34,240 nucleotides of DNA from Oscillospiraceae bacterium (lineage in GTDB: Bacteria; Bacillota; Clostridia; Oscillospirales; Oscillospiraceae): contig CACYXC010000043.1 in the NCBI GenBank assembly GCA_902778285.1, positions 15,242 through 49,481 of the forward strand, written 5' to 3'. The stretch's first letter is position 1. Every line of letters starts with the position of its first letter. Below are positions 1 through 32,004 of this stretch, piece by piece. The notes under the pieces were generated by a model that was not told the origin of the DNA, searched no databases, and worked only from the letters and a program-made list of their open reading frames with translations. The position numbers were made by a program, and so were the translations under genes.

Positions 1-101
1 TTGCAATGAATATATGGCAAAACAGCCGCGCTGTTTTGCTGCGCCGCAAAGCGGCGCGGCGAAAAGCTTTTTGGCTTTTCGCCATCCTATAGTCATTATG
101 A
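1..101 (+). repeat. Right-hand part of a multi-hairpin repeat, copy 1
   Basis: The window opens inside a structured repeat whose full copy lies at 31226-31434. It begins with the core TTGCAATGAATATATG, followed by three adjacent hairpins: CAAAACAGC/GCTGTTTTG, GCGCCGC/GCGGCGC and CGAAAAGC/GCTTTTCG. It ends in CCATC and an ATAGTCATTAT-like terminal sequence. Linkers match the other copy closely while the stems differ by paired changes. The left part lies outside the window. It ends about 24 bases before the start codon of the next gene. Confidence 0.75.
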
Positions 102-13327: not shown

Positions 13328-14852
<1,525 letters not shown>

Positions 14853-17031: not shown

Positions 17032-17075
17032 CCTATCCGACGCAAAAGACCACCCGTTAAGGGTGGTCTTTTGCG
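17032..17075. terminator. Long hairpin interrupted by the insertion sequence
   Basis: The left arm (17032-17055) and GTTAA loop are followed by 15 bases of the right arm, ending in CTTTTGCG (17068-17075). The insertion sequence starts next. The remaining nine right-arm bases (TCGGATAGG) are at 18496-18504, after a second CTTTTGCG. Without the element this is a perfect 24-bp stem. It was probably the terminator of the ABC-exporter operon upstream. Confidence 0.85.
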
Positions 17076-17116
17076 GGCTCTATGTCAATAGTTGGGGTAG
17101 AGCAAAAAGAAGAAAT

Positions 17117-17162
17117 CTAACACAAAGGAGCATGTGGCGCGCCACACGCTCCTTTGTGTTAG
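17117..17162 (-). terminator. Terminator inside the insertion sequence
   Basis: CTAACACAAAGGAGC and GCTCCTTTGTGTTAG form a 15-bp stem with a further GTGGCGCGCCAC palindrome inside. It lies four bases past the transposase stop. On the minus strand AGATTTCTTCTTTTTG follows. Confidence 0.75.
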
Positions 17163-17165
17163 GTG

Positions 17166-18044
17166 CTATGCGGCAGAATGGAGGATTCTGTTGCGAAAGC
17201 GGGCGAAGTTGCGGACGCCATAAGAAACGCGTTTGAGAACCTTCGTTTTGTTGTTGCAGCCTTCGGTATAGCCGTTGGTATAGGGGACGTCAAAGGCATT
17301 GAGTATGTATTTGCTCCAGTTGTGAATAGCTCTTGTGCATTCGTAGAATTCGGGAAGACGTGCACTCTCCGCGCGTAAGATCCAGTAGGAGAGAAGTTCT
17401 TCAGCGACCTTAGAGTTTGGGGAGTGCATAAGGAAAAGAAAGTCATTTTTCAAGTAGTAGGCTTGTTCCAAGCGAGTAGACAGACCAAGAATAATCCGCA
17501 GCTTTCCCCGTTGTTCCTCTGTGAGTTTATGAGGAGGTTTGTTGAGTAGAGCCTTGGAATGCTTGCAGAACTTTCTCCATTCGGCAGGCAGATGTTTTTG
17601 CACTTCCTTCCGTACCCTTTCGAGTGCCCAGATCACTTGCCTGGTAACATGGTAACGGTCGATTACAATGGTGGCCTTTGGAAAACAAACTTCTGCAACG
17701 TCCCGGAAATGCGGGTTCATGTCCATGATGAAATATTTAACCTCTTTTCGGTTTTCAAATTGATGGAAATAGCGGATCAGATTGGATTCTTTGCGGTTGG
17801 GAAGAATGTCCATGATCTTTTTATTTTTTGCATCAGTCAGGATCGTCTGGTATTTCTCACCGTCTGCATTTCCTTTGAATTCATCTATGGAGAGAACCTC
17901 CGGCAACTTCTTGCAGGAATAGTCTACAAGATTAAAGTAACGGAGGGCCGTGCTGACTGAGATGTTGTGCTTTTTTGCTATGTAGGAGGCAGAAACGGTG
18001 TCCCGAAAGTCCTCAATGATTCGAGCGTTCTTGCGGCTCGTCAT
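17166..18044 (-). CDS. ISL3-type transposase, catalytic part
   Basis: The 292-residue frame holds the helix-turn-helix region (VSASYIAKKHNISVSTALRYF) and the ISL3 DDE domain. Likely catalytic acidic residues are in VLSIDEFKG and FIMDMNPHF, with the Glu in NGYTEGCNNKTKVLKRVSYG; IDRYHVTRQV is also typical. The ATG at 18044 overlaps the stop of the upstream frame (ATGA). ISL3 transposases are usually one protein of about 400 residues; together the two frames give about 394. The element may therefore be disabled by a frameshift, or this half may be made by reinitiation or frameshifting. Confidence 0.9.
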   Translation of the reverse strand: MTSRKNARIIEDFRDTVSASYIAKKHNISVSTALRYFNLVDYSCKKLPEVLSIDEFKGNADGEKYQTILTDAKNKKIMDILPNRKESNLIRYFHQFENRKEVKYFIMDMNPHFRDVAEVCFPKATIVIDRYHVTRQVIWALERVRKEVQKHLPAEWRKFCKHSKALLNKPPHKLTEEQRGKLRIILGLSTRLEQAYYLKNDFLFLMHSPNSKVAEELLSYWILRAESARLPEFYECTRAIHNWSKYILNAFDVPYTNGYTEGCNNKTKVLKRVSYGVRNFARFRNRILHSAA

Positions 18045-18349
18045 ACGGTGGGGTAGCGTGGGAGAAAGTTGTTTTTCTCATAGAACCGCTTACCGCAGCT
18101 GCAGCACACATATCTTCTCTTGCGAAGATGTAGGTAGACATTCTTTCCAAAGGATGCTATGTCCTTGATGCACTGCATCCGGTAGTCGTGGATCTGTTCC
18201 GTTTCTGCTCCGCAACAGGGACAGTTGTGCGTCTGGCGGCGCAACTCAATTTCTATGTGCTGTTCTTCTTCAGTCCCCCAGACCTTTTTTACAATTACAT
18301 CTTCCAATCCAAGCATTTTTGCGCTATTATCTTTCATAGAGCATAACAA
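18041..18349 (-). CDS. ISL3-type transposase, N-terminal zinc-ribbon part
   Basis: The 102-residue frame begins at ATG 18349 after GGAAAGGAA and carries two Cys pairs typical of the ISL3 N-terminal zinc finger: CPCCGAET and YVCCSCGKRF. It ends FLPRYPTV followed by TGA, where uninterrupted relatives continue with an RYxRMTS-like sequence. The next frame starts MTSRKNAR in the -1 register, so a change of one or two bases in the CTACCCCAC stretch would explain the break. The zinc ribbon is expected to help bind the terminal repeats. Confidence 0.85.
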   Translation of the reverse strand: MLCSMKDNSAKMLGLEDVIVKKVWGTEEEQHIEIELRRQTHNCPCCGAETEQIHDYRMQCIKDIASFGKNVYLHLRKRRYVCCSCGKRFYEKNNFLPRYPTV

Positions 18350-18509
18350 TTCCTTTCCAGTGGTGGTGTGGCAACTTCATTGTAAATGGAATTGACTTTA
18401 TGCTCTACTTTTATTTCTTCTTTATACAAAAATGTTGGGTGTAGCTCGGCCTCTCAGCCTCGCTACCCCAACATTTATTATAGAACCCTTTTGCGTCGGA
18501 TAGGCTTTA

Positions 18510-28552: not shown

Positions 28553-31198
28553 TTACTGCTTTTTCTTCCTGGGGATCAGCGCCACGACTGCGGAGCCGGA
28601 GAGCAGCATCACCGCAAGCCACAGGACGAGGTTGTTCTCGTCGCCGGTCTTGGGGCTGGCAGAGCCGTAGTGCACGTCAAACTGCGCGGTGGCCTCGCCG
28701 TCCTTGAACAGCAGCGTCACAGGGTAGTTGCCCTTGGCCAGCGTGTTCAGATAGCCGGCATTGATGGTCACGACGGTCTGGCCGCCCTCGCCCATATAGA
28801 AGCCGTAGCTGCCGGCGGGGAGAACCTTGTCGCCGATCTTCACACCGGTGAACTTCTCATAGGGGCCGTCCGCATGGAGCTTCAGCGTCTTGCCGCTGTT
28901 GGTGTACCAGTCGACGGTGGCGAGGTTTGCGTCGGTGACGGAGACGTCGTTGATCTTGAAGACGCGGTAGTCGACCAGAACGCCGACCGTGCAGCGCAGA
29001 CGGTAGGTCTGGGAGCCCATCTTGTACTTGAAGAAGAAGTTGTGGTTGCCGCCGTCCAGCTTCTCAAAGAAGGAGCCGGGGATGGTGACCTTGCCGCCGG
29101 AGATGGTGTAATCGGTGCCGGACTTCAGCTTGGTGCCGGCGCTGGTGTCGGTGGTGTCCATGATGATCTCGATCGGAGTGTCGGTCACGTCAAAGACGAT
29201 GCTCGTGCCGCTGCCCTTGTAGTAGCGGGACGGGGTGAAGGTCACATTGGCCCAGACGTTCAGCGGGAACTCCACGTAACCGCCGCCGTCCAGCTCAAAG
29301 GCCAGGACCAGCGCGTCGGCAGGCAGGGTCTCGAGGAACGCGGCGAACTTGGAGATCTCCACCTTGCCGCCGGCGGCGTAGTAATTGTAGTCGGTGCCGT
29401 TGACCAGAGACTTGACGACAGCCTTGGTGCTCGCGTTCTTGACGCTCAGGGCAGTCAGACCGGGAGACACGCTGAAAGACAGGTTGTAATTCTTGCTGGC
29501 CTGCGCGGATCCCTTATAGTAGTCCGCGGAGGTCTTGCCGTTATTGTTCTTGACGCTGGCGGTGTACTTGCCGACGGTGTACTTGAAGATATCGTCCTTG
29601 GAGGCCGCGGGATAGGTGCCCTTGGCGCAGACGGCCGCGGGAACGGCAGACTTGAACAGGCCGCCGGTCACGCCGCCCACCACATTGGAGGCCACGCCGG
29701 AGAACTTGATGGCGCCGTACTTGCCGTCAGAGATGTTGGGGCTCACCTGGCCGCTGCTGGCATCCACATTCACATTGTTGGCATAAGTGTTGCCGGAGGC
29801 GTTCAGGATGGCCTGCGTGCCGGTGGAGGTGAGGTTGATGTCGCCCTCGACCATGACGCCGGAGAGCTCCAGCGCGCCGTTGACGGTAATGCTGCCCTTG
29901 ACGGTGCCGTTGACAAGACGCAGGGTCTTGCCGGCAGGAACGTAGATATTGCCGGTAATGGTGTAGGTGCACAGATCAATGCCGAAGTAGGAGGAGATGG
30001 CGCTCCAGTCGGTCACGTCCCAGTTGACGTGAGCGGTCAGCCAGTAGTTGCCGTCCTTGCTCTTGTTCAGGCACTCGCTGATCGTGGCATACGCCGCGGT
30101 ATCGTTCTGGATCGCGGTATCGTCCGGTTCATCCGCAACGATGTCGGGCTTCTGCTCCACAACGATCTCCTCACCCTCGGCAGGCTCCTCACCCTCAGCG
30201 GGCTCCTCACCCTCGGCAGGCTCCTCACCCTCGGCAGGCTCCTCACCCTCAGCGGGCTCCTCACCCTCGGCGGGCTCCTCACCCTCAGCGGGCTCCTCAC
30301 CCTCGGCGGGCTCTTCGCCTTCAGCAGGCTCCTCGCCTTCGGCGGGCTCTTCGCCTTCAGCGGGCTCCTCACCCTCGGCAGGCTCTTCGCCTTCAGCGGG
30401 TTCCTCACCCTCGGCAGGCTCTTCGCCCTCGACGGGCGCGGGCTCCTCAGCAGGCGCGGGCTCCTCGACAGGCGCGGGCTCCTCGGCGGGCGCGGGCTCC
30501 TCAGCAGGCGCGGGCTCCTCGACAGGCGCGGGCTGTTCAGCAGGCGCGGGCTCCTCGACTGCGGCTACAGCGGGATCAACGACCTTGTATACGCCCTCCA
30601 GGCCCTCCTGCGCGACCAGGTCATAGGCCGCGGCGCTGCCGCTGAGGAGGTAACCGCCGTCATTGGACAGCCACAGCATCTTCAGGCTGACAGAGCCTTC
30701 GCCCTTGATGACGCAGGCAAAGCTCAGAAAAGCATCCTGAGTGGCAGAAGTGCGCACAACGATCTCGCCGTTCTTGAGGGCGGAGCCGTTGGCCATGAAA
30801 ATGGCGGCCTCGTCGCTCACGGAAGGAACGAAGGTCATGGTCTTGCCGTTCAGACTCATGGAGACGTTCGCAGGGATGCTGATGCTGTTCGACAGCACAA
30901 CGTCCTGCGTAAGAATGACCATCTGGCCCTCCTGGGCAGCGGCAAGCGCGTCGGCAACCGTCGCATAGTACAGCGTCTCCTGATCGGAGACATTGATCTT
31001 CGCGACGCCGCCGCTCGTGCTGGAGGCAGCGGCACCGGGCTCGCCGGGATCGCTGGAAGCGATGATCACGCCGTCCACTACGGGCACAGCGCTCTGGGGA
31101 GCTTCCGCGCTCTCCTCTGCCGAAGCGCTCACGGCCATGAGGCCGAAGCACATGGCGATGACCAGAAGAATAGACAACAGCCTGATGTAAGCTTTCAT
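28553..31198 (-). CDS. Secreted cell-wall-anchored protein with Glu/Pro stalk and SPKTG sorting signal
   Basis: The 881-residue protein has a signal peptide (cleavage likely after ASA, residue 27). A beta-helix-like segment follows (about 60-190, SISIPANVSMSLNGKTMTF). Next is a Pro/Glu stalk (about 213-344): EEPAP(A/V) repeats, then 14 GEEPAE hexapeptides. A second beta-helix-like region lies at about 370-520 (ITGNIYVPAGKTLRLVNGTV). Three repeats resemble X2-like Ig modules (about 570-840; for example KLKSGTDYTISGGKVTIPGS). The C-terminus has SPKTG (848-852), a hydrophobic helix and RKKKQ, a sortase signal. ATG 31198 follows AAAGGAGAA. No catalytic motif is visible; binding or adhesion is inference. 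Confidence 0.88.
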   Translation of the reverse strand: MKAYIRLLSILLVIAMCFGLMAVSASAEESAEAPQSAVPVVDGVIIASSDPGEPGAAASSTSGGVAKINVSDQETLYYATVADALAAAQEGQMVILTQDVVLSNSISIPANVSMSLNGKTMTFVPSVSDEAAIFMANGSALKNGEIVVRTSATQDAFLSFACVIKGEGSVSLKMLWLSNDGGYLLSGSAAAYDLVAQEGLEGVYKVVDPAVAAVEEPAPAEQPAPVEEPAPAEEPAPAEEPAPVEEPAPAEEPAPVEGEEPAEGEEPAEGEEPAEGEEPAEGEEPAEGEEPAEGEEPAEGEEPAEGEEPAEGEEPAEGEEPAEGEEPAEGEEPAEGEEPAEGEEIVVEQKPDIVADEPDDTAIQNDTAAYATISECLNKSKDGNYWLTAHVNWDVTDWSAISSYFGIDLCTYTITGNIYVPAGKTLRLVNGTVKGSITVNGALELSGVMVEGDINLTSTGTQAILNASGNTYANNVNVDASSGQVSPNISDGKYGAIKFSGVASNVVGGVTGGLFKSAVPAAVCAKGTYPAASKDDIFKYTVGKYTASVKNNNGKTSADYYKGSAQASKNYNLSFSVSPGLTALSVKNASTKAVVKSLVNGTDYNYYAAGGKVEISKFAAFLETLPADALVLAFELDGGGYVEFPLNVWANVTFTPSRYYKGSGTSIVFDVTDTPIEIIMDTTDTSAGTKLKSGTDYTISGGKVTIPGSFFEKLDGGNHNFFFKYKMGSQTYRLRCTVGVLVDYRVFKINDVSVTDANLATVDWYTNSGKTLKLHADGPYEKFTGVKIGDKVLPAGSYGFYMGEGGQTVVTINAGYLNTLAKGNYPVTLLFKDGEATAQFDVHYGSASPKTGDENNLVLWLAVMLLSGSAVVALIPRKKKQ
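30167..30425 (-). repeat. Fourteen 18-bp units coding for GEEPAE
   Basis: Fourteen consecutive units encode the identical hexapeptide. Their DNA varies only at synonymous positions (for example CTCACCCTCGG versus CTTCGCCTTCAG in the plus strand). All six frames are open through this stretch, which explains the spurious long antisense frames here. A less regular EEPAP-type repeat continues to about 30560. Confidence 0.95.
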
Positions 31199-31225
31199 GT
31201 TGGTTCTCCTTTACTCTGCTTACTA

Positions 31226-31231
31226 TTATAA
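31226..31231 (-). promoter_or_regulatory. -10 box of the surface protein gene within the repeat end
   Basis: A perfect TATAAT on the minus strand lies inside the left terminal repeat, 27 bases before the SPKTG protein ATG. A convincing -35 box is not visible. The element may therefore supply, or have landed on, this gene's promoter. Confidence 0.4.
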
Positions 31232-31434
31232 TGATTATCGCATGGAGAAAACGATCGAGTTCTCGATTGTTTTCTCTGCCAAACGACACGCTTGGCAGCA
31301 AATGATGGATTCCATCATTTGCGCGATGCTCATTGCAATGAATATATGACAAAACAGCAGAGCTGTTTTGCTGAGCAGCTAAGCTGCTCGGCGGAACGCC
31401 TTGCGGCGTTTCGCCATCAGATAATCATTATAAA
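31226..31434. repeat. Full copy of the multi-hairpin repeat with terminal inverted repeats
   Basis: The 209-bp element is bounded by the 14-bp inverted repeat TTATAATGATTATC (31227-31240 and the complement 31420-31433). Inside are six hairpins: GAGAAAACGATCGAG with its complement (31246-31277), GCCAAACG/CGCTTGGC with one mismatch (31279-31297), GCAAATGATGG/CCATCATTTGC (31299-31323), CAAAACAGC/GCTGTTTTG (31348-31368), GAGCAGC/GCTGCTC (31371-31387) and CGGAACGCC/GGCGTTTCG (31390-31411). The core TTGCAATGAATATATG is at 31331-31346. Copy 1 at the window start matches the right half. No transposase is present, and no clear target duplication was found. Confidence 0.8.
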
Positions 31435-32004
31435 TCAAAAATTTATAATCGATTTCTCCCGCCTGCATTTGGGTACGCAAAATAGCGCCCTGTACAGGCT
31501 TATGGATACTGTACCACTTTATCGGGTCATTTGCAAGAGCTATTTGAAGTTTTTTGCTATATTTTTTTACCGCTTTGTAATTACTTCGTATGTATACAGT
31601 AACCAGCAGAGGAGAGGGTAAAAGCAGTTAGAAGCGTTGATAATTCAGGCCTTTTCTGTGATCATGCTGTATCGTCAGCACGGAATTGAATACAAAAAAG
31701 TTTCAACGCCCTCTCAATATTAAGAAAGATTAAGAACTGAAATTGACATGACCGGCTGCAGCAGCTCTGATCCCCACGCGGGCGAACAGCAGGATGTCTC
31801 CTTTTCAGTGCAAATTTATAACTGACCGTATCTGTTGATTTCAAATAACGGCGGTTTTTGTCGTTCATGCGCCGCCGCTGCATTTTACCGTGCAGATGCT
31901 TTCCTTTTTTTGTGCATTTTGACGCAAGGCTTTTCCGACAGTCCGGTCTTTTCAGCAATTTTAATAAAGTTGGTCATTTTGACCGAAATCTTTCGATTTT
32001 TTCC
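31435..32004. other. Long AT-rich intergenic region without a supported gene
   Basis: About 570 bases lie between the repeat and the hppA promoter. The only open frames are short and have no ribosome binding site. Small inverted repeats occur (CGGCGG/CCGCCG around 31847-31875 and CTGCA/TGCAG around 31879-31896). I see no terminator or RNA family that I recognise. Confidence 0.5.

Follow-up and report, generated by a model that had tools for sequence, protein, structure and literature searches.

Miniature inverted-repeat transposable elements (MITEs) are short, non-coding sequences with inverted ends and a high copy number. REP sequences and REPINs are marked by a GTAG or CGTC tag, and the double-hairpin elements and mobile palindromes of mitochondrial DNA are likewise small, but they reside in organelle DNA and their architecture is other than that of the six-hairpin element described here. 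Bacterial MITEs are described as preferring AT-rich intergenic sites and as folding into stable stem-loops, and the terms "compensatory", "covariation" and "hairpin" are absent from the passages on MITEs in the part of the review used here (PMC10969869). Compensatory changes are reported for REPINs in the portion of the literature cited (PMC3116915), and the GTAG/CGTC tag is named in the title of a further paper (PMC3733652). The pneumococcal BOX and RUP repeats are modular and short, fold strongly and can enter transcripts; in the sections consulted, their fold is discussed as that of the transcript (PMC3049150).

The element studied here is a repeat of 206 bp that contains six hairpins and lies at positions 31227-31432 of the window (the whole 34,240-nucleotide stretch of DNA that was analysed); a second, partial copy is located at the left edge of the window. 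Similar to MITEs, it is short and intergenic, occupies at least 63 places in its genome and carries terminal inverted repeats (ATAATGA...TCATTAT in 93 of 110 copies). Unlike MITEs, it has a body of two units and six hairpins, stem covariation at the DNA level and a bias towards the 5' regions of genes. With REPINs and REP-BIME repeats it shares the inverted doublet with a hairpin spacer and compensatory changes, but its ends lack the GTAG/CGTC tag (alignment of 25 copies) and its insertion results in a net AT gain at the site. Set side by side with BOX and RUP from their descriptions, it is similar in being a modular short repeat with a strong fold, in an unrelated host. The repeat is a new genus-restricted MITE-like family, which is REPIN-like in keeping DNA hairpins and departs from REPINs on two tests; no description of it was found in the open-access literature searched. 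Our main reading, to which we assign a probability of roughly 0.7, is that of a genus-restricted, non-autonomous, MITE-like mobile repeat moved by an enzyme that would act in trans and need folded DNA. The features of the two window copies and of the adjacent gene are as follows.

31228-31229 and 31430-31431: AT flanking the full copy.
31230-31429, plus strand: full copy, from AATGA to TCATT (sequence and covariance-model match; boundaries by analogy with empty and filled rpsT sites).
31230-31334, plus strand: unit L, closing stem AATGATTATCGC/GCGATGCTCATT with hairpins 1-3 (RNAalifold consensus, DNA fold, closing-stem covariation).
31243-31278, plus strand: hairpin 1 (RNA fold, consensus, pair counts).
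31279-31295, plus strand: hairpin 2 (RNA fold, pair counts).
31298-31322, plus strand: hairpin 3 (RNA fold, consensus, pair counts).
31330-31341, plus strand: unit junction TCATT-GC-AATGA (sequence, alignment of 25 copies).
31337-31429, plus strand: unit R, closing stem AATGA plus TAT on the left and ATA plus TCATT on the right, with hairpins 4-6 (consensus, covariation, DNA fold).
31348-31372, plus strand: hairpin 4 (RNA fold, consensus, pair counts).
31373-31389, plus strand: hairpin 5 (RNA fold, consensus, pair counts).
31390-31415, plus strand: hairpin 6 (RNA fold, consensus, pair counts).
5-97, plus strand: unit R of the second copy, whose left end lies upstream of the window beyond another repeat and a scaffold gap.
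28553-31198, minus strand: gene of 881 amino acids whose start codon and the 206-bp interval are 28 bp apart; the full copy thereby occupies the 5' region of this gene, reversed relative to it.

The paired stem changes between the two window copies, which prompted the preliminary description to propose selection on folding, are borne out by re-reading the sequence. Hairpin 5 of the left copy is GCGCCGC/GCGGCGC, that of the full copy GAGCAGC/GCTGCTC, and in hairpin 6 one A-T pair has been replaced by C-G and another by G.T. The left copy (1-101), described as partial, is indeed so within the window: the copy is cut by the start of the window, which coincides with a scaffold gap, and upstream in the contig lie its left end, then another repeat, then N. 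The RNAalifold consensus of 25 copies consists of two consecutive units, in each of which a closing stem surrounds three hairpins, and the minimum-energy DNA fold of the window copy has the same two-unit architecture. The full copy does have the 14-bp inverted ends reported earlier (TTATAATGATTATC/GATAATCATTATAA), but they are not the pairing that is conserved in the family. Across 110 copies this outer end-to-end pairing is Watson-Crick in 0.727 of cells (0.556 in its inner half) with 6 double-change cells, and the corresponding values are 0.861 and 32 for the closing stem of unit L and 0.954 and 14 for that of unit R. The RNA fold of 31216-31445 has an energy of -106.7 kcal/mol (z -13.0; 0 of 200 shuffles equally good), that of the other strand -103.5 (z -10.7), and the fold of 31227-31432 with DNA parameters -66.1 (z -10.8). 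Units are also found alone (R-like in L241 and L242, a shortened L-like one in L205), as are single-hairpin forms with similar ends (L207, L211, L236), and several copies carry internal deletions between retained ends (L221-L226). In the latter group, unit L is near-identical and the deletions between the units differ, as if hairpin-mediated deletions were frequent.

Copies were counted with a covariance model (R1) built from 25 copies and applied at a threshold of E 0.001 or better. Its count of at least 63 distinct places in the 2.4-Mb genome of origin, of which 22 are at least 190 bp long and which total 0.44% of the sequence, is a lower bound because 150 of 1242 candidates from this genome were scored. 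Of 61 genomes sampled from the genus, 34 carry the element, its own included. By blastn it is present in 20 of 37 genomes of the genus, and none of 23 from other families of the order has it (0 of 23). A 31-base core is matched exactly in 25 stretches of records named as Ruminococcaceae, Oscillospiraceae, Clostridia or Clostridiales. The many copies of the repeat are scattered over one group of rumen and gut bacteria. Two exact element patterns had no match in viral contigs, and one copy used as a blastn query had none in plasmids and phages. For the analyses below, the model was run on 119 loci, omitting mainly loci of the genome of origin with shorter copies. Repeats of the same locus (L129, L131, L041, L048, and L115, which repeats L095), lesser or cut matches (L013:1-185, L136:2692-2862, L150:797-1005, L049) and opposite-strand matches of the same places were left out. 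Half copies located at the ends of contigs were regarded as assembly breaks and put aside. Removal of L094 and L164 as duplicates resulted in 112 copies, and that of L052 and L053, which have degenerate ends, in 110; the set consists mainly of best-scoring matches, which favours well-paired copies.

The mobility of the element is seen in the leader of rpsT, where an empty-site search shows both filled and clean empty sites. The query of this search matched 97 of 102 genomes of the genus; among the 30 loci fetched, 2 are filled (L175, L181) and 28 are without the element, and a further genome (L108) is filled at the same nucleotide, making three. L176 and L181 have the leader AACTCAATTTTATAGGAGG in common, and in L181 the element splits it behind TTTTAT. 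An empty site xATx' corresponds to a filled site xAT-AATGA...TCATT-ATx', and the difference is the element plus a net AT (2 bp), which fits equally well with duplication of 2 bp (AT) and, for an element with TA at its ends, with no duplication at all. The flanks of the copies give no clear target-duplication signal; their consensus is about TTATAA, the target contains AT, and AT is kept at both ends in 101 of 110 copies. Palindromes of at least 8 bp flank 7 of 109 copies (4.5 expected) and are not a general target. The three rpsT carriers differ in both leader and element, so their copies look like separate insertions. A single inherited rpsT copy in L106 and L108 that underwent compensation in situ was considered and dropped, as the empty sites point to separate insertions. 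In genome G069, the two members of each of two pairs of copies are identical and yet differ in their flanks, and the family has therefore moved there recently. Together, the copy number and the empty rpsT sites support the earlier proposal of a non-autonomous mobile element. In L096 and L130, which by flank match are the same gene neighbourhood in two genomes, the element is found in opposite orientations.

Almost all copies (105 of 112) occupy a gap between two called genes and overlap neither; 4 overlap a gene and 3 are at a locus edge, with genes called by a home-made codon-usage gene finder. Gene context was analysed for 103 of the 112 copies, after dropping those at a locus edge (L020, L100, L107), with gene overlap (L009, L018, L054), with degenerate ends (L052, L053) or with distant genes (L141); L092 was kept despite its overlap with a very weak gene call, and slightly negative distances were taken as absolute values. 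The gaps are divergent in 49 cases, tandem in 50 and convergent in 4 (0.138 expected as a fraction, P 0.0015). About half of the copies (53 of 103) are located 15-45 nt upstream of a start codon; the fraction expected from element-free gaps under a home-made, approximate site null is 0.256 for target-weighted AT sites and 0.194 unweighted (P 2e-8). As to strand bias, both orientations to the nearest start occur (58 and 41). Judging from these short distances, transcription of the adjacent gene probably passes through the element. Through its 5'-region bias, the element may rewire leaders at many genes, including rpsT. The protein encoded at 28553-31198 (881 residues) has long proline/glutamate-rich repeats, a CBM_X2 match and a tail that we take to be sorting-signal-like.

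The stems of the element covary strongly across copies, in agreement with what two copies had suggested. On a tree of 110 copies, in which recombination is ignored, double changes occur at least once in 46 of 83 pairs and at least twice in 26. Internal branches carry 44 double versus 39 Watson-Crick-to-mismatch single steps, and terminal branches 57 versus 233. In a comparison of nearest neighbours, made without the variable target bases, those that differ by at most 2% show per-site differences of 0.0039 in stems, 0.0227 in loops and 0.0153 in linkers. The ratio of doubles to singles changes with rising distance from 0/9 (up to 2%) and 3/102 (2-5%) to 37/203, 43/77 and 11/8. These branch and neighbour counts indicate that lineages that spread keep complementarity, while single mismatches build up in individual copies.

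Covariation usually serves as the proof that an RNA is functional, and a structured RNA under selection (a leader element or a small RNA) would also suit the very stable fold, found on both strands, and the location in gene 5' regions. RNA selection would favour G.U pairs; DNA pairing would not. At pairs with a Watson-Crick consensus, however, G.T occupies 122 cells and A.C 106, and the two are near equal in each orientation class, whether by orientation to the downstream gene (36/36 in forward tandem, 14/14 in reverse tandem) or by nearest start (57/57 and 47/41). The control, RNase P RNA of the genus (28 of 30 fetched loci; L266 and L279, which match at another offset, were left out), has 68 G.T versus 8 A.C (Fisher P 4e-9 against the element). 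When the element is analysed as RNase P was, the counts are 63 to 47 (P 1e-6 against 68 to 8) and, for the other strand, 95 to 63. Since G.T is not clearly commoner than A.C, unlike in RNase P RNA, pairing appears to be kept at the DNA level, a conclusion that the base counts support. The preliminary description had left the choice between RNA and a DNA cruciform; RNA folding is not supported, and DNA-level pairing is, be it as a cruciform or as a single-stranded hairpin. The loops are the fastest-changing part, the element is found in both orientations to the nearest start, and no Rfam family reaches its gathering score for the element (a permissive scan gave sub-gathering matches only). An RNA function was rejected on the G.T and A.C counts, and we regard it as highly improbable. 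Strong covariation that fails the G.U versus A.C test is a concrete warning for RNA-discovery pipelines. The absent G.T preference also fits template switching at replicating hairpins, in which one arm is copied onto the other, so that mutation itself would keep the stems perfect in an element that is still mobile. Loop inversion is described as a footprint of this process in the part of the source used (PMC8794818). In hairpin 2, TTGTT and TCGTT replace AACAA/GACAA, and near-inverted loops exceed column shuffles in hairpins 2, 3 and 4 (0 of 500 shuffles give as many) and 5 (3 of 500). The excess is absent in hairpin 1 (147 of 500), and hairpin 6 has no such loops; column shuffles break the linkage within a loop and therefore overstate the excess. 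These footprints suggest that template switching also acts and fit real DNA hairpins, with repair staying a rival to selection. As the keeper of the stems, template switching has against it the nearest-neighbour counts up to 5% difference, where singles far outnumber doubles, and the surplus of singles on terminal branches, by which correction is slow at best. We consider it unlikely, yet a live rival; the more than 100 natural copies are well suited to telling selection from template switching as the process by which DNA hairpins stay perfect.

The enzyme that would move the element was sought in the same genomes. A parent transposon was not found: in 17 end-motif stretches outside known copies (G000, G069, G062), no transposon is seen that has these ends. 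In 355 loci, 13 pairs of ends are spaced 260-4500 bp apart, and these fit adjacent copies, a nested repeat or an end that arose by chance. As the genomes are incomplete assemblies, absence of a mobilising gene carries little weight. There is no excess in carriers versus non-carriers of DDE_3 (4/34 versus 7/27), DDE_Tnp_1 (11/34 versus 11/27), rve (7/12 versus 6/11) or ISL3 (2/12 versus 2/11). AATGA ends were not seen in eight stretches at rve loci, which include three near-equal matches in carriers (G032, G067, G069); these matches and the other rve loci read are presumably IS3-like. The sole excess among the transposase families compared is that of RAYT-like genes, a subset of the Y1_Tnp matches (14/34 carriers versus 3/27 others, P 0.011, uncorrected with several families compared). 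It would agree with a repeat of the REPIN/BIME type that is mobilised by a RAYT (REP-associated tyrosine transposase), as would the inverted end pairs that enclose hairpins with compensatory changes, known from REPINs (PMC3116915, as far as used here), and a RAYT-like gene about 2.4 kb from an element copy on the same contig (G021:C35). But, unlike in REPINs, no element copy is present in the 20 stretches read around RAYT-like genes; none is present in 52 stretches around other transposases either. Furthermore, several of the RAYT-like genes adjoin GTAG-type palindromes of another sequence, Y1_Tnp overall is found in 21/34 carriers versus 13/27 others, and a Y1_Tnp match is absent in the carriers G069 (73% complete, with identical copies), G067 and G023 (95% complete each). 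Movement by a RAYT is, in our judgement, improbable. The RAYT-like genes and the GTAG-type palindromes are a separate REP system of the genus. RAYT-like genes such as L324, L327 and L335 (also L316-L334) are frames of 162-308 residues with weak Y1_Tnp matches, and in L011 and L096 element copies lie inside apparent GTAG-type palindromes.

Transposition of folded DNA, which we infer, is the best-supported mechanism for the MITE-like repeat. An enzyme acting in trans would require the element DNA to be folded into hairpins or cruciforms, in one or both units, and only well-paired copies would leave progeny. Insertion into open or negatively supercoiled DNA near promoters would give the 5'-region bias, and many copies would join the leader mRNA as a by-product. 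A more specific form of this mechanism is tentative, and we lean against it: the enzyme would recognise extruded three-hairpin, cloverleaf-like units (four-way junctions) together with the AATGA ends, folding would be the selected trait, and 5' leaders would be reached via open promoter DNA.

A second structured repeat has its ends near CAAGCTGTCGACAAAG and TTTGTCTACAGTCTGAA. It has inserted within hairpin 1 of the element or next to it at L031:440-560 (upstream of window position 1) and L235:502-850, and in a short form of the element at L216:553-687. In L235, one hairpin stretch is present on both sides of the inserted repeat. The window also contains an ISL3-type insertion sequence at 17075-18488 (transposase at 17166-18044, PF01610; end repeats at 17075-17100 and 18463-18488), which has one match in the genome of origin and, within its ends, a near-perfect 23-bp palindrome without a loop at 17117-17162. 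At 13328-14852, an apparent single gene, which we take to encode PEP carboxykinase, is split over two overlapping frames by a frameshift or an assembly error.
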